Virus record (IMG/VR): IMGVR_UViG_3300025168_000089
Span: 1-61,151 of that record
Length of the DNA stretch: 61,151 nucleotides
Reading direction: 5' to 3' (one strand)
DNA from: a virus
The notes beneath the pieces are model-generated. The model had not been told where the DNA came from, did not search any database, and saw only the letters and a list, made by a program, of their open reading frames with translations. The position numbers and the translations under genes are program-made. Positions 38,516-50,075 of the stretch are shown here, piece after piece. Each line of letters begins with the position of its first letter. Within the stretch, counting starts at the first letter, position 1.

Positions 38516-39300
38516 AATATTTATTTTTTGACGTAGAAACAACTGGGTTATGGAAAAGAGATTTAGAAGCAACTGATCCTAAACAACCTAAAATAGTTCA
38601 AATTGCTGCTCAATTAACTGACAAAGATGAGAAAGTTTACGCACAATTAGCTTGTATAGTACAACCAGATAAATGGTCTATACCTAAAGAAGCTGAAGAT
38701 ATTCATAAAATAAGTGATAATATAGCTTTGCAATATGGTGTTCCTCTGATAAATGTATTAGGAATGTTTAATTCTCTAGCAGCACAAGCTGACGTATTAG
38801 TGGCTCACAATACATCATTTGATTTACAGATGGTATTAAGAGAATTTAATGCGATAGGAAAAAGTTTTAGGATTCCTAAAGAGCAACATTGTACGATGAT
38901 GACTGCTAAAGATATTTTAAAATTAGAAAGTAATTTTAATGACTATAAATTTCCTAAACTAGAAGAAACATATAAACATTTTTTAGGAGCAGGAGGATAT
39001 CATAATTGGCACGATGCTCTTACTGATATTATTATATGCCGAATAATCTACTTCCACATGAAAGCGAAAGGAATAAAAATGGAAAAACCACGTGCAATGC
39101 CTAAAGCATTAATTAAAAATTTGGACGAAAAAATATACAAAGAGTTTTTAAATCTTATAAAATTTATTAAAGAAGATACTTTAAATGATTGGGAAAAAGG
39201 TTTTCTTAAAGACCAAAAAGAAAGACATGAGAAATATAAAGAAAAAATACTTATGAGCGATAAACAAATGAATATATTAAGAAAGTTTAAAGATAAATGA
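38512..39300 (+). CDS. DnaQ-like 3'-5' exonuclease (DEDDh)
   Basis: The 262-residue protein has Exo I FFDVETTGLW (Asp7, Glu9), Exo II VAHNTSFDLQMVLREF and Exo III HNWHDALTDIIICRI, with His and Asp five residues apart as in the DEDDh class. It removes 3' nucleotides, giving proofreading or DNA processing. The polymerase at 46712 already contains its own exonuclease domain, so this may work with recombination or in degrading nucleic acid. It overlaps the epimerase gene by 4 bases. Confidence 0.84.
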   Translation: MKYLFFDVETTGLWKRDLEATDPKQPKIVQIAAQLTDKDEKVYAQLACIVQPDKWSIPKEAEDIHKISDNIALQYGVPLINVLGMFNSLAAQADVLVAHNTSFDLQMVLREFNAIGKSFRIPKEQHCTMMTAKDILKLESNFNDYKFPKLEETYKHFLGAGGYHNWHDALTDIIICRIIYFHMKAKGIKMEKPRAMPKALIKNLDEKIYKEFLNLIKFIKEDTLNDWEKGFLKDQKERHEKYKEKILMSDKQMNILRKFKDK

Positions 39301-40259
39301 GAGTATTAGTAACAGGTTGCGCTGGTTTTGTAGGATCACATCTTACAGAACATTTAGTTAATAGAGGAGATACTGTTTACGGTATAGATAATTTATTAAC
39401 AGGGCAAGAAAAAAATATAGGAAATTTGCATAGTTTTATAGAAGCAGATATTAGTAAAACTAATGATATGAAAGATATTATAAAACAAATTATAAATGAA
39501 GGACCTATTGATTTAATTTATAATTTAGCATGTCCTGCAAGTCCTGATCACTATATAAAACATTCTCTTAAAACTTTAGATACTTGTTATTTAGGAACTA
39601 AAAATATTTTAGATGCTGCGTTTTTAACAAATTCTATGGTCATACACACATCTACTTCAGAAGTATATGGAAACCCAGATCATAGCCCTCAAGAAGAAGA
39701 TTATTACGGAAGTGTAAATTCTTTTGGACCACGAGCATGTTATGATGAGGGTAAAAGAGTAGCAGAAGCACTTATCTATGAATATATTCGTTTATATAGA
39801 TTAGATATTAAAATAGCAAGATTATTTAATACTTATGGACCTCGTATGGCTGTTAATGATGGTAGAGTTATATCTAATTTTATTTGCGCTGCTTTAGAAA
39901 ATAAAGAATTATTATTATATGGCAATGGGCTTCAATCTCGTTCTTTTTGTTATGTATCAGATACAATACACGCTTTATTAGGGCTTGCAGAAACTACAAA
40001 ATTAAATAAACCAGTTAATATTGGCAACCCAGATGAAAAAACAATTTATAATATTGCTGAATTAATAATTGCAATGACTGATTCTAAATCAGGAATCATG
40101 ACAGTTGCACATAAAAAAGACGACCCTTTACAAAGATGTCCTAATATAGAAAGAATTAATATGTTATTAAATTGGAAACCAGAAATAACTTTAACAGAAG
40201 GACTAAAGAAAACCATAGAGTATTTTAGAAAATGTTTAATAAAGAAAACACCAACGTAA
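39297..40259 (+). CDS. UDP-glucuronate decarboxylase (UDP-xylose synthase)
   Basis: The 320-residue short-chain dehydrogenase-type enzyme binds NAD with VTGCAGFVGSHL (Gly7, Gly10, Gly13), has TSEVYG (near 120-125), ACYDEGKR with catalytic Tyr149 and Lys153, and NTYGPRMAVNDGRVISNF, which is specific for UDP-glucuronate decarboxylases rather than generic epimerases. It converts UDP-glucuronate to UDP-xylose. In this setting it could supply a pentose for DNA or virion glycosylation. The gene overlaps the helicase by 28 bases. Confidence 0.85.
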   Translation: MRVLVTGCAGFVGSHLTEHLVNRGDTVYGIDNLLTGQEKNIGNLHSFIEADISKTNDMKDIIKQIINEGPIDLIYNLACPASPDHYIKHSLKTLDTCYLGTKNILDAAFLTNSMVIHTSTSEVYGNPDHSPQEEDYYGSVNSFGPRACYDEGKRVAEALIYEYIRLYRLDIKIARLFNTYGPRMAVNDGRVISNFICAALENKELLLYGNGLQSRSFCYVSDTIHALLGLAETTKLNKPVNIGNPDEKTIYNIAELIIAMTDSKSGIMTVAHKKDDPLQRCPNIERINMLLNWKPEITLTEGLKKTIEYFRKCLIKKTPT

Positions 40260-41765: not shown

Positions 41766-42440
41766 ATGAGTAACGATAAAAGAATAGATTACTTGAATAG
41801 TTTTCAAAATAAAATAGATAGCGATATTTATAGCGAACCTAAATCTCAATTACACTATAGTGTAATAAAGCCTCAAGCACAAAACTTTTTAAATCAATTC
41901 GGAATTAAAGAAGATAAATCAGTTATAGATATAGGTTGTGGAGATGGTTATTTTTTATCTTTGTTAAAAGAAAATGGATTTAAAGATTTAGCTGGAGTTA
42001 CTAAAGGCAAAGAAGATATTACTAATTGTGTTGATAAAGGAATAAAAAAAATATATGATACTGATATGACATTTACTCATATTAAAGAACAATACGATGT
42101 TTTATGGTGCCGGCATTGTCTTGAGCATAGTCCATATCCTTATTTAACTTTGCATGAATTTAATCGTTTAGTTAAAATGAATGGCTATGCTTATATAGAA
42201 GTTCCCGAAGCTGAAGGATATGTTAAACATGAGAATAATGCAAATCATTACTCTATGTTAACGAAAAGAAATTGGGTATCTTTAATTTTACGTTGTGGAT
42301 TCGATATAAATAGAATACAAGATATTGATTTAAGTATTAGAAATAAAGATTTTCAAGATGGACACCCCTATCCCGAGCAATGGTGGGCTTTTTATTTAAC
42401 TAAAACAATTGATTTAAAATTTATGGAAGGAAAAATATGA
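41766..42440 (+). CDS. class I SAM-dependent methyltransferase
   Basis: The 224-residue protein has motif I VIDIGCGDGYFLSLL (binding S-adenosylmethionine), then an acidic end of the second strand (LAGVTKGKED) and CRHCLEHSPYPYLTLHEFNR as motif IV region, typical of Methyltransf_11/23 enzymes. Such proteins are often sugar, small-molecule or surface methyltransferases; no DNA-specific NPPY motif is present. It might finish a sugar modification from the neighbouring cassette, which is inference. Confidence 0.75.
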   Translation: MSNDKRIDYLNSFQNKIDSDIYSEPKSQLHYSVIKPQAQNFLNQFGIKEDKSVIDIGCGDGYFLSLLKENGFKDLAGVTKGKEDITNCVDKGIKKIYDTDMTFTHIKEQYDVLWCRHCLEHSPYPYLTLHEFNRLVKMNGYAYIEVPEAEGYVKHENNANHYSMLTKRNWVSLILRCGFDINRIQDIDLSIRNKDFQDGHPYPEQWWAFYLTKTIDLKFMEGKI

Positions 42441-43498
42441 AAGCAATAGGAAGTTATATATTCGCTGGAGGGTTTACTATTGGCGTTAAAAAACATTTTG
42501 ATATTGAGGCACATTTAGAAGGTGATGGAGCGTACGGAGCAGACACATTTTCTTTAAATTATCCAAATATACCTATATTTGAAGGACCAGATAATTGGCC
42601 TATAGAAAAATATAAAGATAAAATAGATTTTGTGTATGGTAATCCCCCTTGCGCTCCCTGGAGTACGTTAGGTTCAGGAAGTAAAGGAGCAGATGGTTGG
42701 AAAACTGATCCTCGTATTAGTTGTTGGAACGATGTATTTTCTTTACTTTATAAAATAAGGCCTAAAGTTTTAGCTATTGAATCAGTTCCCCGTGTTTTTT
42801 CAGAGACAGGAGGTAGACCAATGATAATGGATTTTACTAAAAAAGCTAATGAAGAAGGTTACGCCGTTACACATTTATTAGTAGATGGACAATATACGGG
42901 ACTTCCTCATTCAAGAAAACGATTTTTCTTTTTAGCACATAAAGGAAATTTTAATCCTCCTGCTCCTAACTGGAATCCTGCACCAAATGTAGGAGAAGTA
43001 TTAGATGAATTAAAAGCAGATGGAATTGAAGCAGGTCATACTGCAACTTTAAGTGAAAATGAAATGAAATTAACTAGAATGGCTAAACCTGGAGAATCAT
43101 TGAGAAATATATGGGAAAGTTTAAATCCCCCTGAAACTTGGAAAAGGTCACTTAAAGGACGTAAAGGAGTTATAGGTAGACCTCAATTTATGAAATGGAG
43201 ATTAACTCGAAAACAAATAATGGGAGTTATTGCAGGAAGTTTTTCTATTCACCCTGAAGAAGATAGACTTTTAGGAATACAAGAACTCTGCGCTTTTTGT
43301 GGATACCCAACAGATTATAAATTTTCAGGAGCAAAATCAGGGTGGCCTAGTTTATTAGCTAGAGGAGTAATGCCTCCAGTAGGTGAATGGTTAGCTAGAA
43401 ATGTAAAAGCAATGATAGAATCTAATTCGGGATTTGAAGTTAATCATAAAGTTATAGATTACCGTAAACCAACAACAGGAGATTTATTTAATGCTTAA
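42437..43498 (+). CDS. C5-cytosine DNA methyltransferase
   Basis: The 353-residue enzyme shows motif I FAGGFTIGV (9-17), motif IV GNPPCAPWSTLG with catalytic Cys72, motif VI as ESV (115-117) in place of the usual ENV, motif VIII QYTGLPHSRKRFFF (152-165) and a C-terminal GVMPPVGEWLARN like motifs IX-X. It transfers a methyl group to C5 of cytosine. It may protect phage DNA from restriction or prepare cytosine for more changes. The target recognition region (about 190-290) is compact. It overlaps both neighbours. Confidence 0.82.
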   Translation: MKAIGSYIFAGGFTIGVKKHFDIEAHLEGDGAYGADTFSLNYPNIPIFEGPDNWPIEKYKDKIDFVYGNPPCAPWSTLGSGSKGADGWKTDPRISCWNDVFSLLYKIRPKVLAIESVPRVFSETGGRPMIMDFTKKANEEGYAVTHLLVDGQYTGLPHSRKRFFFLAHKGNFNPPAPNWNPAPNVGEVLDELKADGIEAGHTATLSENEMKLTRMAKPGESLRNIWESLNPPETWKRSLKGRKGVIGRPQFMKWRLTRKQIMGVIAGSFSIHPEEDRLLGIQELCAFCGYPTDYKFSGAKSGWPSLLARGVMPPVGEWLARNVKAMIESNSGFEVNHKVIDYRKPTTGDLFNA

Positions 43499-43871
43499 AG
43501 ATATAGAAGAATTTCATAAAAAATTTGGATTTGAAAAAAGAGTGGGTATCAAAAATAATAAAAATTTGGTAGACTTTCGGATTAAATTCTTAGAAGAAGA
43601 ATTAAGAGAATTTAAAGAAGCAATTAAAGAAGAAAATGATGCAAAAGCATTAGATGCTTTAGTTGATTTAACATATGTAGCTATAGGAACAGCTTATCTT
43701 TTTGATTATCCGTTTTGGGCTGCTTGGACAGAAGTACAGAAAGCTAATATGGCAAAAGTAAGAAAAGAAAGTGAACGTTCAAAATTTGATGTAATAAAAC
43801 CTAAGGGTTGGAAAGCACCTAATATTGAACAAATAATAAATATATTTAAAAATTGGAAGGCATGGTCATGA
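43491..43871 (+). CDS. MazG-like nucleotide pyrophosphohydrolase
   Basis: The 126-residue helical protein has FLEEELREFKEAIKEEND then ALDALVDLTYVAIGTAYL, the EExxE...ExxD pattern of all-alpha NTP pyrophosphohydrolases (MazG, dUTPase/dCTPase relatives). These split dNTPs to dNMP plus pyrophosphate. Placed among dCMP enzymes, it is a candidate dCTP pyrophosphatase like T4 gp56, which keeps normal cytosine out of phage DNA. Substrate is inferred. Confidence 0.76.
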   Translation: MLKDIEEFHKKFGFEKRVGIKNNKNLVDFRIKFLEEELREFKEAIKEENDAKALDALVDLTYVAIGTAYLFDYPFWAAWTEVQKANMAKVRKESERSKFDVIKPKGWKAPNIEQIINIFKNWKAWS

Positions 43872-44911
43872 AAGTATTAGTAACAGGATTTACTGCTAAA
43901 GGTATAGGCAGTGGTAAAAATGTATTAGAGATTGCAACAGCAGCTAATTGTTTACCAAGAGCATTAAGAGAATGCGGAATAGAAGTGGATCATAAGTCAG
44001 TTACTCCGGGAGATGATATATCAGAATATGATAAAGTAGTAGTATTTGCTTTTGCTCCTAATTCTTTACCGTCATCTTATTTATATGGAGGTCTTTATAC
44101 TTTATTGAAAAGACCAGACGCATATATAGCATTAGATGATTGGCAAACTAAAGATATAAAACAAGGATGTGGTACTTTTGCACGTGACGGACATTGGAGA
44201 TTATGGAAAAGAGTAAGTAAAGCAGGTAACTCTGTGGGTAAAAAATTCTTTCATGAAGCACAAGCTTATAAAAAAGAAATGGAAGATTTAATTACTCAAT
44301 TAGCTTTTGAAAAATGGCCATATAAAGTACTAGCACCAGTTTATAAAGGTGGAGATGTATCTCAATTAGGGATAGATTCCAAAGAAATAATACCATGGGA
44401 TCCAACTCCTGTTACTGATAGTTATAAAGCAGGAAGTAAATATAATCAATCTTTATTTTCAAGTATAAATAGTATTCCTGAAGTTAAAGAAAAAGAATGG
44501 ATCATGGCTTCTTTAATTCAAAAACAAAGTTGGTTTAAACGACAAAAATTCGAATGGCCTGTAACTTGTTATGGTAATCCAAATCTTAATCAACGAAGAT
44601 TAACTGAGCCCGATTTATATAATGAATATTTAAGAGTGAGGGGAATATTAATACCTCCTCATTATCATACGATAAAAGGAAGTGGTTGGTGGAGAGTTCG
44701 TTACGGAATGATAGCAGACGCAGGTTGCATAGCTTATGGAGAAACTGAAGAAACTAAATTATTTGGAGATTCTTATCAAGTATCTTTATCTGATATAGAA
44801 AAAATGAATGATAGTGAATTAAATGATTTAGCTGAAATTCAAAAAAAAGATTTTAATTCTACAGTATGGAATAAAAATAGATTAAATACTTTTATAAGCG
44901 ATTATTTTTAA
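43868..44911 (+). CDS. possible GT-B-type glycosyltransferase of the modification cassette
   Basis: The 347-residue protein has a Rossmann-like N terminus (KVLVTGFTAKGIGSGKNVLE; DKVVVFAFAPNSLPSSYLYG), a linker and a second half ending HYHTIKGSGWWRVRYGMIAD then GCIAYGETEE, which resembles the donor-binding C-terminal domain of GT-B glycosyltransferases. ATG 43868 is preferred because GGAAGG lies at 43855-43860 and it forms ATGA with the MazG stop; TTG 43853 is less likely. It may glycosylate hydroxymethylcytosine, but I do not recognise the family for certain. Confidence 0.45.
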   Translation: MKVLVTGFTAKGIGSGKNVLEIATAANCLPRALRECGIEVDHKSVTPGDDISEYDKVVVFAFAPNSLPSSYLYGGLYTLLKRPDAYIALDDWQTKDIKQGCGTFARDGHWRLWKRVSKAGNSVGKKFFHEAQAYKKEMEDLITQLAFEKWPYKVLAPVYKGGDVSQLGIDSKEIIPWDPTPVTDSYKAGSKYNQSLFSSINSIPEVKEKEWIMASLIQKQSWFKRQKFEWPVTCYGNPNLNQRRLTEPDLYNEYLRVRGILIPPHYHTIKGSGWWRVRYGMIADAGCIAYGETEETKLFGDSYQVSLSDIEKMNDSELNDLAEIQKKDFNSTVWNKNRLNTFISDYF

Positions 44912-45516
44912 TGAGAGATACATCAAATACAGTGAAAGGAATTATTATAGTAGAAGGTGCAGACTGTACGGGTAAAACTACTTTAACAGATTTATTTCGT
45001 AAAAAATTTAAAGCGAGATATATGCACTTACGAATTCATAAAAAAATGGAAGTATGGCATACTGCTACTGTTCGTAGAGCAATTAGATTAGCTAAAAATG
45101 AATTAGTTGTAATCGATAGACATTGGCCATCAGAAGAAGTTTATTCTTATGAAAGAGCAGATGGACCTGAATATAATCCTTTAAAACTTTATAAAAAATT
45201 AAAAAAAGCAAATACATTATATGTATGGTGTGCTCCTGAAGATAGTGCTAAAGTTATACGAACACATAGAAAAAAGAAAGAAGAACGGCATGAAGAATAT
45301 AGTGATATTACTCGAATTGTTGATAGATACAAACGTTCATGGTATGGTTTAAACTATGAGCATAATAACTTTCTTAAATCTCTAGGGGAATTAAGATGGC
45401 GAAAAAACTTCATACGATATGACGTTTTTAAAGAAGGTCATAAGATTGATAATAAATCTTATGATATAATTAATCGACTACGATATTTGAGAGGAGAAGC
45501 AGTATGGACGGTTTAG
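44911..45516 (+). CDS. deoxynucleoside monophosphate kinase, thymidylate kinase-like
   Basis: The 201-residue P-loop kinase has IIIVEGADCTGKTTLTDLF (Walker A 16-24) and VVIDRHWPSEEVYSYERADG with the DR(H/Y) motif of thymidylate kinases (Asp69, Arg70), and a basic lid (RTHRKKKEERHEEYSD). It phosphorylates a dNMP. Next to the thymidylate-synthase-like gene it would be suited to raise a modified dCMP to the diphosphate, as T4 gp1 does. It shares one base with the previous gene and overlaps the next by 13. Confidence 0.78.
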   Translation: MRDTSNTVKGIIIVEGADCTGKTTLTDLFRKKFKARYMHLRIHKKMEVWHTATVRRAIRLAKNELVVIDRHWPSEEVYSYERADGPEYNPLKLYKKLKKANTLYVWCAPEDSAKVIRTHRKKKEERHEEYSDITRIVDRYKRSWYGLNYEHNNFLKSLGELRWRKNFIRYDVFKEGHKIDNKSYDIINRLRYLRGEAVWTV

Positions 45517-46304
45517 CAGCAGATAATGTTTGGAATGATGCTATTTTAGATATTCAAGGAGGATTAAAATCATCGCCTCGTGGTATGAAAACACGAGAAA
45601 AAATAAATCATACTACTATGTGTGATATGCGATATCCTATCGTTACTAATAAAAAAAGATTATTAGGCTATAATTTTATGGTACAAGAAGCTATTTGGAT
45701 ATTAAGGGGTGATAATAGATTGAGCACGATAAAACATTATTCTAAAATAATTAGTAAATTTAGTGATGATAAATATTTCTTTAGAGGAGCTTATGGTCCT
45801 AAAGTTATAGACCAACTTCAGTATGTGTGTCACGCACTAAAAGAAGATAGAAACACGAGACAAGCAGTTATAAATATTTGGAGAGAAAGTCCATATGCGA
45901 CTAACGATATACCTTGTACTATATCATTTCAATTTTTAATTCGTGAAGATAAATTACATATTATAGCTAACATGAGGTCTAATGATTTATGGTTAGGCTG
46001 GCCTTACGATAATTTTAATTTTTCTATGCTCGGCGCATACGTTGCTTTATTATTAAAAGACATATATAATATAGAAGTGGGACTAGGAATAACGACTATT
46101 AATGCAGGGTCACGTCACTTATATGAACCTAACTTTGAGTCAGCAGATATGTGTACACATTCTAATTATGAAGATTATGTTAACTATAAACCATTGAATT
46201 TAAAGGATTATACTAGTGCAGAAAATTTCTTAGACCATTTAGAATTTGTATCTTTACCTAACTCTAAAGGATTTGCACATGAATTTTTTAATGAGACCAA
46301 ATAA
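45504..46304 (+). CDS. thymidylate-synthase-family enzyme, probable dCMP hydroxymethylase
   Basis: The 266-residue ThyA-fold enzyme keeps Glu62 (QEAIWILRGD), catalytic Cys138 (DIPCTISFQF), the phosphate motif MRSNDLWLGWPYDN (Arg158, Ser159, Asp161) and SRHLYEPN (His205, Tyr207). The residue matching E. coli TS Asn177, which selects dUMP, is Asp169 here. In T4 dCMP hydroxymethylase the same place is Asp, and Asn-to-Asp changes turn TS toward dCMP. I therefore predict hydroxymethylation (or methylation) of dCMP with methylene-tetrahydrofolate. Confidence 0.8.
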   Translation: MDGLAADNVWNDAILDIQGGLKSSPRGMKTREKINHTTMCDMRYPIVTNKKRLLGYNFMVQEAIWILRGDNRLSTIKHYSKIISKFSDDKYFFRGAYGPKVIDQLQYVCHALKEDRNTRQAVINIWRESPYATNDIPCTISFQFLIREDKLHIIANMRSNDLWLGWPYDNFNFSMLGAYVALLLKDIYNIEVGLGITTINAGSRHLYEPNFESADMCTHSNYEDYVNYKPLNLKDYTSAENFLDHLEFVSLPNSKGFAHEFFNETK

Positions 46305-46740
46305 GAACGAAACTTTTTTAGACATTGCCCAGACAGTATCGGAACAAGCAACATGCATCCGGCGTAATGTTGGGTGTGTGTTAGTTAATTCAAAAAATCA
46401 TATTCTTGCGACAGGGTATAACGGAGTTCCTGCAGGAGCAGTGCACTGTTTAGATTTACCTTGCGCTGGAGCAGAACTTCCATCAGGAGAAGGATTAGAT
46501 TCTTGCGAAGCGATTCACGCAGAGCAAAATGCATTACTTCAATGCAAAGATATTTATGATATTGAAAAATGTTATTGCACAGTAAGTCCGTGTATGACGT
46601 GTGTTAAATTATTATTAAACACTTCTTGTAGTATTTTAATTTTTCCTACTTTATATACTGATACAGAACCATTAGAACTTTGGAAAAAAGCAGAAAGAGA
46701 GTATATTATTTATGAACGACTTATTCAAACCCGTCAGTAA
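46279..46740 (+). CDS. deoxycytidylate (dCMP) deaminase
   Basis: The 153-residue zinc enzyme has CEAIHAEQNALLQC (His and catalytic Glu) and VSPCMTCVKLLLNTSC (two Cys ligands), and the family-specific RRNVGCVLV and TGYNGVPAG. It converts dCMP to dUMP for dTMP synthesis and shapes the dCMP/dTMP balance. ATG 46279 is chosen, with AAAGGA 8 bases upstream; the frame also opens at TTG 46246. It overlaps the preceding gene by 26 bases and the polymerase gene by 29. Confidence 0.9.
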   Translation: MNFLMRPNKNETFLDIAQTVSEQATCIRRNVGCVLVNSKNHILATGYNGVPAGAVHCLDLPCAGAELPSGEGLDSCEAIHAEQNALLQCKDIYDIEKCYCTVSPCMTCVKLLLNTSCSILIFPTLYTDTEPLELWKKAEREYIIYERLIQTRQ

Positions 46741-48583
46741 TTGGAGACCTCCCGAGGTTTTAATTAATTACAGCGACTCAAAATGTTTAGCTATTGATAC
46801 TGAAACGTATGACCCTAATTTAAAAAAGAATGGACCTGGAGGATTTCGTAACGATGGATTTGTCGTTGGTATTTCTCTATGCGATGAAGCAAGAAGAAAA
46901 TGTTATTTACCTATAGCACATCAAGAGGGCGGTAATCTTCCTAAAGAGTTAATCATCTCTTATTTAAAAAACGCACTGGAGACGACTAAAACGAAGATTT
47001 TCGCTAATGCATTATATGATTTAGAGTGGCTATCTACTTTAGGAATAAATACTCAAGGAAAAGTATATGATATTCAAGTAGCAGAAACTTTACTTAATGA
47101 GAATCGTAGGTCGTTTTCTTTAGATAATATATCAGCGGATTATTTAGGTGAAAAGAAAGATGAATCACTTTTAGAAGAAGCTGTGAGAACTCATTTTTCT
47201 GGAAAAGCTAATGTAAAAGGAAGTTTATGGAAACTTCATTCATCATATGTTGGTCCATATGCTGAGAAAGATGCTGAGTTGACGATGCAAGTTTTTAAAA
47301 AACAATATCCTTTATTACGGCAAGAAGATTTATTACCTGTACTTGATATGGAACAACGTATGATTCCTCTTTTGTTATCGATGAGAAAGAAAGGTGTTCG
47401 AGTTGACATTGAGAAAGCATCGAAGCTAAAGGATACGATTTACTTAAAACAAAATGAAACGCAAAAACAGTTAAACCATATTATAGGTGGAGAAGTAAAT
47501 GTATGGGCTAATGAAAGTATAGCGAGAGCATATGATTCACAGAATATTAAATACACATACACGGCCAAAGGATCACCATCATTTACTCAAGACTGGTTAA
47601 ACACTGCAGGAGATAATATTAGTCCTTTAATTTTACGAGTGCGAAAACTCTATAAATTAAAAAGCACATTCATTGAAAACATGATTATTAATAAATCAGT
47701 TAATGGAAGATTACATTGTCAATTACATTCGACAGGAACAGTAACAGGACGATTTAGTTCATCACATCCTAATCTTCAACAAGTACCTGCGCACGATCCC
47801 GAGTTAGCGCCATTAGTAAGAGGTTTATTTATTCCTGAAGAAGAACACGATTGGGTATGTGTAGATTATGCACAGCAAGAGCCACGATTACTCGTTCACT
47901 TCGCAAGTAAAACAAATAATCGTTCAGCAAAATTGGCACAGAATTTATACAAAAACGATACACAAACTGACTTTCATACGATGGTTGCAGAGATGGCTGG
48001 AATCAAGAGAAAACAAGCAAAAACTATTAATCTTGGCTTAACTTATGGCATGGGAAAAAAGAAATTAGCAGCGGAATTAGGACTAAGTTTTGATGACGCA
48101 GAATCTCTCTTTGAGAAGTATCATCGCAATGTTCCTTTCGTTCAAGCATTGAACAATCAAGCTATCGCATTCGCTTCGACTAAAGGTTATATTAAAACTT
48201 TATTAGGAAGGCGCAGGCATTTTAATTTATATGAACCAACTGGTTGGGATAACTTTGGTAAGCCTGCGTATCCGATTGAGAAAGCGAAAGAAGTGTATAA
48301 AGGAATGATATTGAAAAGAGCACAAACACATAAAGCTTTAAACTGCTTGATCCAAGGATCAGCCGCTGATGTTACAAAAGCAGCTATGTTAAAAGTATGG
48401 GATAGTAAGATTATGGATATAGGATTAACGATACATGATGAGTTAGACTTCTCAGTACCTCGCACGAAAGAGGGTGAAGAAAAACTTAATGAAGTAGTTA
48501 ATATTATGAAGAACGCAGTTACATTAAATGTTCCATTAGAGGTAGACGTTGAGAGAGGAGCAAGTTGGGGAGAGATTAAGTGA
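46712..48583 (+). CDS. polA: family A DNA polymerase with 3'-5' exonuclease
   Basis: The 623-residue replicative polymerase has an N-terminal exonuclease (CLAIDTETYDP, Asp29 and Glu31; further SxxxADxE-like motif AEKDAELTMQVF), motif A CVDYAQQEPRLL (Asp385), motif B RKQAKTINLGLTYGMG (Lys437, Tyr445) and motif C IHDELDF (His575, Asp576). The residue matching E. coli Phe762 is Leu441, the state connected in marine viral surveys with lower speed, higher fidelity and temperate or slower life styles. It lacks the 5' nuclease domain of E. coli Pol I. Confidence 0.93.
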   Translation: MNDLFKPVSNWRPPEVLINYSDSKCLAIDTETYDPNLKKNGPGGFRNDGFVVGISLCDEARRKCYLPIAHQEGGNLPKELIISYLKNALETTKTKIFANALYDLEWLSTLGINTQGKVYDIQVAETLLNENRRSFSLDNISADYLGEKKDESLLEEAVRTHFSGKANVKGSLWKLHSSYVGPYAEKDAELTMQVFKKQYPLLRQEDLLPVLDMEQRMIPLLLSMRKKGVRVDIEKASKLKDTIYLKQNETQKQLNHIIGGEVNVWANESIARAYDSQNIKYTYTAKGSPSFTQDWLNTAGDNISPLILRVRKLYKLKSTFIENMIINKSVNGRLHCQLHSTGTVTGRFSSSHPNLQQVPAHDPELAPLVRGLFIPEEEHDWVCVDYAQQEPRLLVHFASKTNNRSAKLAQNLYKNDTQTDFHTMVAEMAGIKRKQAKTINLGLTYGMGKKKLAAELGLSFDDAESLFEKYHRNVPFVQALNNQAIAFASTKGYIKTLLGRRRHFNLYEPTGWDNFGKPAYPIEKAKEVYKGMILKRAQTHKALNCLIQGSAADVTKAAMLKVWDSKIMDIGLTIHDELDFSVPRTKEGEEKLNEVVNIMKNAVTLNVPLEVDVERGASWGEIK

Positions 48584-49811: not shown

Positions 49812-50075
49812 ATGGTTCGTATCACGTGGTTAGATGCCCGTGATACGGAAACTGGTTGGCTCGATATAAAAGATGTTATCGATGCGCCATTAGCGTTATG
49901 TCAAGAAGTCGGCTGGATGGTTACCAGTAATGAAGATAAAGTAGTTATCATGCGTTCTTATAGTAAAGATAAAGATGAAGTATCGGGCGGTGGAGCTATT
50001 GCTATACCTAAAGGTTGGGTTAAAAAAATAGAATATTTAGAGGTATCATATGGAGAAAGAAGCGATAATAGGTAA
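49812..50075 (+). CDS. small conserved-type phage protein
   Basis: The 87-residue protein (MVRITWLDARDTETGWLDIK) is beta-rich, with CQEVGWMVTSNEDKVVIMRS and IAIPKGWVKKIEYL. The Trp-Asp-rich start and IPKGWV end are familiar from small phage proteins of unknown role. It overlaps the oxygenase gene by 26 bases. No strong ribosome binding site precedes ATG 49812. Confidence 0.6.
   Translation: MVRITWLDARDTETGWLDIKDVIDAPLALCQEVGWMVTSNEDKVVIMRSYSKDKDEVSGGGAIAIPKGWVKKIEYLEVSYGERSDNR

Follow-up and report, generated by a model that had tools for sequence, protein, structure and literature searches.

In phage T4, dCMP is hydroxymethylated by gp42, in which Asp179 is the determinant of dCMP recognition and Asp145 the proposed water-activating residue; the D145N variant is inactive (PMC6400193). 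The pathway further comprises gp56, gp1, cd, and a beta-glucosyltransferase (BGT). Enzymes of the thymidylate synthase (TS) family with Asp at position 177 of the E. coli enzyme (EcTS) are a common class in phages, positions 177 and 147 were those that best tracked cytosine-modified contigs in MetaGPA, and Asn-to-Asp mutants of TS yield 5-methyl-dCMP (PMC8670742). A Ser or Thr at the position of T4 Ser94 has also been proposed as a dCH signature, reported to be conserved and not strictly defining. Other sugars are found in RB69, with its arabinosyl-5-hydroxymethylcytosine (arabinosyl-5hmC), and in the Shewanella phage Thanatos, the cytosine of which bears a pentose (PMC12838424). For pentosyl-5hmC, a Uxs route was put forward by the authors of the RB69 study (PMC6024577). 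Apart from that proposal, our literature searches found nothing tying a UDP-xylose synthase (UXS) to phage 5hmC, and nothing on UDP-galactopyranose mutase (UGM) with hydroxymethylcytosine in phages.

We analyzed a 61,151-nt stretch of an IMG/VR virus record (IMGVR_UViG_3300025168_000089), hereafter the window, for which megablast found no near phage records. Coordinates without a locus handle are those of the window, and all features given there with start and end positions lie on its + strand. The explanation that best fits the locus combines a dCMP hydroxymethylase encoded at 45504..46304, genes for dNTP supply, and glycosylated 5hmC in the phage DNA; taken whole, we assign it a probability of about 0.8. 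As an enzyme, the hydroxymethylase belongs to a recognized type; of more interest are a glycosyltransferase (GT) family and its varying sugar partners.

Residues of the thymidylate synthase family enzyme

The ORF at 45504..46304 encodes 266 aa from an ATG start. It matches PF00303 in a profile search (E 2e-20) and scores far below the ThyA equivalog cut-offs. Its nearest relative by sequence in the PDB is the CMP hydroxymethylase MilA (7e-19), which is also the top match of its AF2 model, with a Z of 13.5 that is level with TSs. Both enzymes have Asp at the cytosine position; however, MilA uses Ala176 and Lys133 for CMP (PMC5175136), whereas Ser159 and Arg119 of the window enzyme match dCMP-type enzymes.

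The first-pass annotation of this DNA held that Asp169 stands at the position of EcTS Asn177 in an enzyme whose other catalytic residues remain, and this is confirmed by our comparisons. Asp169 (GAT codon, 46008..46010) lies opposite EcTS Asn177 and T4 gp42 Asp179 in an alignment with E. coli TS, T4 gp42, and SPO1 gp29, and hhalign against T4 gp42 (E 1.2e-9) gives the same register; no other residue occupies the Asn177 position in the alignment with E. coli TS and T4 gp42. A role of Asp169 in cytosine recognition is predicted from its counterparts (PMC6400193, PMC5175136, PMC8670742). Glu62, Cys138, Arg158, His205, and Tyr207 correspond to EcTS Glu58, Cys146, Arg166, His207, and Tyr209, respectively, and Tyr97 is likewise aligned with the catalytic residues of the family. 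With this set intact and Asp at 177, dCMP is the predicted substrate, as the annotation had proposed.

Two further residues, absent from that annotation, bear on whether a methyl or a hydroxymethyl group is formed. Asp135 (45906..45908) lies opposite EcTS Leu143 and T4 gp42 Asp145, and by analogy with the latter is proposed to activate water for the hydroxyl (PMC6400193). Thr139, encoded next to the catalytic Cys138 (both codons, 45915..45920), lies opposite EcTS His147 and T4 Thr149. The triad at EcTS positions 143/147/177 thus reads D-T-D, as in T4 gp42, versus L-H-N in TS. The C-terminus reads FNETK, versus PVAI in TS, and the TS-type tail is absent here as it is in gp42. The T4 enzyme is nevertheless distant in sequence, and its Ser94 appears not to be conserved, as Gly95 of the window enzyme stands opposite it in a loop of uncertain alignment. 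A ThyA assignment was rejected on the Asp, Thr, and Asp at 177, 147, and 143 and on the absent C-terminal tail.

Asp is found at position 177 in all 81 IMG/VR relatives, a sample skewed in part by the use of WLGWPYD and WPYDNFNF among the search patterns, and also in all of the nearest phage records, which were retrieved by pattern-free tblastn; together, these results argue that Asp169 is not a chance occurrence. Close homologs carry the annotation 'pyrimidine hmase'. The closest annotated relatives are AXL3 gp27-gp31 and the pelagiphage and Manatee Spring 'pyrimidine hmase' modules, which are D-T-D with 43-53% identity and mostly include a kinase and a dCMP deaminase; unlike in the window, neither the phrog_14998 GT described below nor UXS was found near the gene. 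In AXL3, the D-T-D relative (43.5% identity over 81%) has MazG, kinase, and dCMP deaminase genes alongside. Of 37 restriction enzymes, only 2, both recognizing sites composed of A/T alone, cut AXL3 DNA (PMC7504290), a pattern that fits modified cytosine (or guanine) throughout and does not distinguish 5mC from 5hmC.

Substrate and product of the enzyme

Asp177 was discarded as proof, by itself, of hydroxymethylation, since AXL1, which is of the 5mC type, has it too. Asp169 points to dCMP as the substrate, and Asp135 and Thr139 point to a hydroxymethyl rather than a methyl product, so that the D-T-D triad makes the gene most likely a dCMP hydroxymethylase. A dCMP methylase, in which hydride transfer gives 5-methyl-dCMP and 5mC replaces C as in Xp12, would be compatible with Asp169 alone, because the Asn-to-Asp TS mutants make this very product (PMC8670742), and 5mC would give the same restriction pattern as that of AXL3 (AXL1, Xp12; PMC9206674). 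We consider such an enzyme highly improbable here. AXL1, a close relative used in our residue comparison as a stand-in for Xp12, encodes a candidate methylase (AXL1_63) that has an N-P-D triad and lies two genes from a DHFR gene, whereas the window enzyme is D-T-D and the record has no PF00186. The inactivity of T4 D145N (PMC6400193) also speaks against a methylase, as does the GT of the operon, which requires a hydroxyl. Hydroxymethylation is favored by Asp135, Thr139, the missing TS-type tail, the GT, and the lack of a DHFR gene, although the absence of DHFR (PF00186) and ThyX from the 61,151-nt window counts for little, as the window is perhaps incomplete.

An enzyme acting on dUMP, be it the hydroxymethylase of a 5hmU phage or an ordinary TS, seems to us likewise highly improbable. 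The Gln at EcTS 127 that is common to the family of this ORF and SPO1 gp29 would fit such an activity, as would the adjoining dCMP deaminase, which supplies dUMP, and a tree in which Asp177 and Asn177 rows do not split into two clean clades. In that tree, the Asp177 rows do not form one clean clade, and the branches of T4 gp42 and EcTS are very long. However, the dUMP-type enzymes of SPO1, S218, P26218, QdP_Psa3, and Montesquieu, with their D-N-N triad, all lack Asp177 and Thr147, and Leu143, His147, and the C-terminal tail of TS are all missing from the window ORF. The Montesquieu enzyme adjoins a thymine-hypermodification gene, and that of Molly1 has Asn177 with Thr147.

We predict with high confidence that the ORF at 45504..46304 encodes a dCMP hydroxymethylase. 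Such enzymes are already recognized in phages and metagenomes, and the change of substrate is not unusual. In the proposed mechanism, dCMP would be held through Asp169 and attacked at C6 by Cys138, methylene-tetrahydrofolate would supply the one-carbon unit, and water activated by Asp135 would be added in place of hydride transfer, giving 5-hydroxymethyl-dCMP.

Nucleotide supply and methyltransferase genes

The gene order in the window clade is exonuclease, UXS, UvrD helicase, methyltransferase, C5-methyltransferase, MazG, GT, kinase, hydroxymethylase, dCMP deaminase, PolA, and VRR-NUC, and the operon of MazG, kinase, dCMP deaminase, and PolA is retained across relatives that are ~50-95% identical. 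In the window, these genes encode a MazG/PRA-PH-type nucleotide pyrophosphohydrolase, a possible dCTPase analog (43491..43871; PF01503, 3e-10; phrog_671, 1e-26), a P-loop (deoxy)nucleoside monophosphate kinase (44911..45516; PF13521/PF02223; phrog_761), a dCMP deaminase (46279..46740; PF00383, 3e-18; phrog_174, 2e-36), and a family A DNA polymerase (46712..48583; PF00476, 7e-70). In 75 of the 81 loci, the kinase is encoded in the vicinity of the hydroxymethylase, and in most relatives the two genes adjoin. T4 gp56, gp1, and cd have plausible counterparts in the pyrophosphatase, kinase, and deaminase, and a protein with a predicted BGT-like fold is likewise part of the operon. The kinase would phosphorylate 5-hydroxymethyl-dCMP on its way to the triphosphate, the pool of unmodified dCTP/dCMP would shrink through the MazG-family enzyme and the deaminase, and 5hmC would enter DNA via the phage PolA. 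PolA replication distinguishes the window from T4, as do its own UXS and C5-methyltransferase. In two close relatives (L006 and L007), there is no dCMP deaminase between the hydroxymethylase and PolA.

Two methyltransferase genes precede MazG: a SAM-dependent methyltransferase of the Methyltransf_23 type (41766..42440; PF13489, 1e-17) and a C5-cytosine DNA methyltransferase (42437..43498; PF00145, 5e-26), the PPC motif of which is intact across the clade in the alignment. The latter, which accompanies the GT, is hard to reconcile with full replacement by 5hmC, where no C5-H is left; it may act earlier or on residual cytosine, assist in base flipping, or be left over from a Tet-type pathway. 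In a single contig (L037:2-2425), one ORF fuses a C5-cytosine methyltransferase (aa 10-276) to a phrog_14998 GT (aa 327-650), and a D-T-D hydroxymethylase is encoded close by; no second fusion of this kind was found. Another gene, encoding a 280-aa Methyltransf_23 protein (e.g., L099:6198-7037), is present in 34 of the 81 loci, in D-T-D modules without the GT, and never occurs with the GT within 7 kb. AXL3-type loci carry it instead of the GT, and it could represent an alternative 5hmC decoration or plain phylogeny.

The candidate phrog_14998 glycosyltransferase and its possible sugar partners

The GT candidate (43865..44911), predicted to be of GT-B fold, has no match in Pfam and was matched only by phrog_14998, an unannotated family of unknown function. 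GT-B enzymes came out on top when its AF2 model, of medium confidence (pLDDT 74), was searched with Foldseek. In VIA-align, the four best rows were all T4 BGT (Z 17.6 and rmsd 4.0 over 292 residues, at 14% identity), and the next fold followed at 14.6. Direct sequence homology to T4 BGT, which belongs to phrog_7922, was rejected, as neither hmmsearch nor hhalign was significant. The model suggests a fold shared with BGT, which does not imply membership of its family.

Genome context is a stronger argument than fold for a role in DNA glycosylation. Each of the 13 records checked that encode a phrog_14998 GT has a likely 5hmC source as well, a PF00303 protein in 12 of them and Tet_JBP in the other (C48C1); because several of these records are close relatives of the window, they do not count as independent of one another. 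The hydroxymethylase copies checked are D-T-D in phiAS4, FBB1, DSL-LC01, GodonK, L037, and L110, and E-T-D in Rgz1. No Tet_JBP was found in the window; its 2OG oxygenase, at 50050, belongs to PF13759 instead. Based on the fold model and this context, the phage DNA probably carries glycosylated 5hmC, and the GT would act on 5hmC within DNA. The Gordonia phage GodonK encodes a second, diverged phrog_14998 copy (gp116, L131:5230-6240; hhalign 1e-20), two genes from the first and adjoining two further annotated glycosyltransferases.

The candidate UDP-glucuronate decarboxylase, or UXS (39297..40259), matches human UXS in the PDB with 296 bits, the next SDR scoring 118 bits. It is present in 9/9 window-clade loci long enough to include the position and is confined to one clade. 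Different sugar genes accompany the GT in other phages: UGM adjoins it in phiAS4, FBB1, C48C1, and DSL-LC01, while in Rgz1 an arabinose-5-phosphate isomerase lies on one side of it and an NTP-transferase protein on the other. In C48C1 (L128:3586-7033), Tet_JBP oxygenase, GT, and UGM are consecutive, suggesting galactofuranosyl-5hmC made by the Tet route. The window resembles RB69 and Thanatos in pairing a dCMP hydroxymethylase candidate with a phage-encoded supply of a non-glucose sugar nucleotide (PMC6024577, PMC12838424); those phages use other sugar genes (ORF53_52c, TH1_063), and the Uxs route of the RB69 paper is a proposal only.

The UXS gene precedes the GT by five genes, one of those in between encoding a helicase, a spacing that would also suit a real hydroxymethylase accompanied by a UXS and a GT with other uses, such as surface sugars; the DNA would then contain plain 5hmC, or glucosyl-5hmC made from host UDP-glucose. 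Nucleotide-sugar epimerases do serve other ends in phages, and the 330 phage records matched by the UXS query include many other epimerases and dehydratases. Still, we find this account unlikely, as the GT sits directly inside the hydroxymethylase operon, members of its family co-occur with a likely 5hmC source in every one of the 13 records, and they often adjoin a sugar-nucleotide enzyme (UGM four times, the isomerase in Rgz1). For glycosylated 5hmC made with the phage's own sugar, UXS possibly provides xylose to the GT, although UDP-xylose as the donor is itself doubtful. Only tentatively do we propose the fuller scheme, in which 5hmC would bear xylose or another UXS-derived pentose through the phage UXS and the undescribed phrog_14998 GT, with kin attaching galactofuranose (UGM) or arabinose to 5hmC from a dCMP hydroxymethylase or Tet/JBP (C48C1).

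The window clade is not alone in combining a UXS with a pyrimidine hydroxymethylase, since Molly_1 and QdP_Psa3 both have a UDP-glucose dehydrogenase, a UXS-like protein, and a dUMP-type hydroxymethylase. In the Maribacter phage Molly_1 (L133:5969-10728), the dehydrogenase, the UXS-like epimerase, a beta-glucosyltransferase-like protein, and the Asn177 hydroxymethylase are consecutive, possibly a pathway to sugar-decorated 5hmU. Near the hydroxymethylase module of the Pseudomonas phage QdP_Psa3, a gene annotated as hypothetical (L132:12486-13514) matches the CBASS inhibitor Acb3 (PF25187, 1e-40).

An uncharacterized GT family is accompanied by either of two likely routes to 5hmC and by differing genes for sugar supply, from which we predict that phage DNA bears sugar decorations of new kinds. 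These decorations, if true, could alter which restriction and CRISPR defenses act on the phage.
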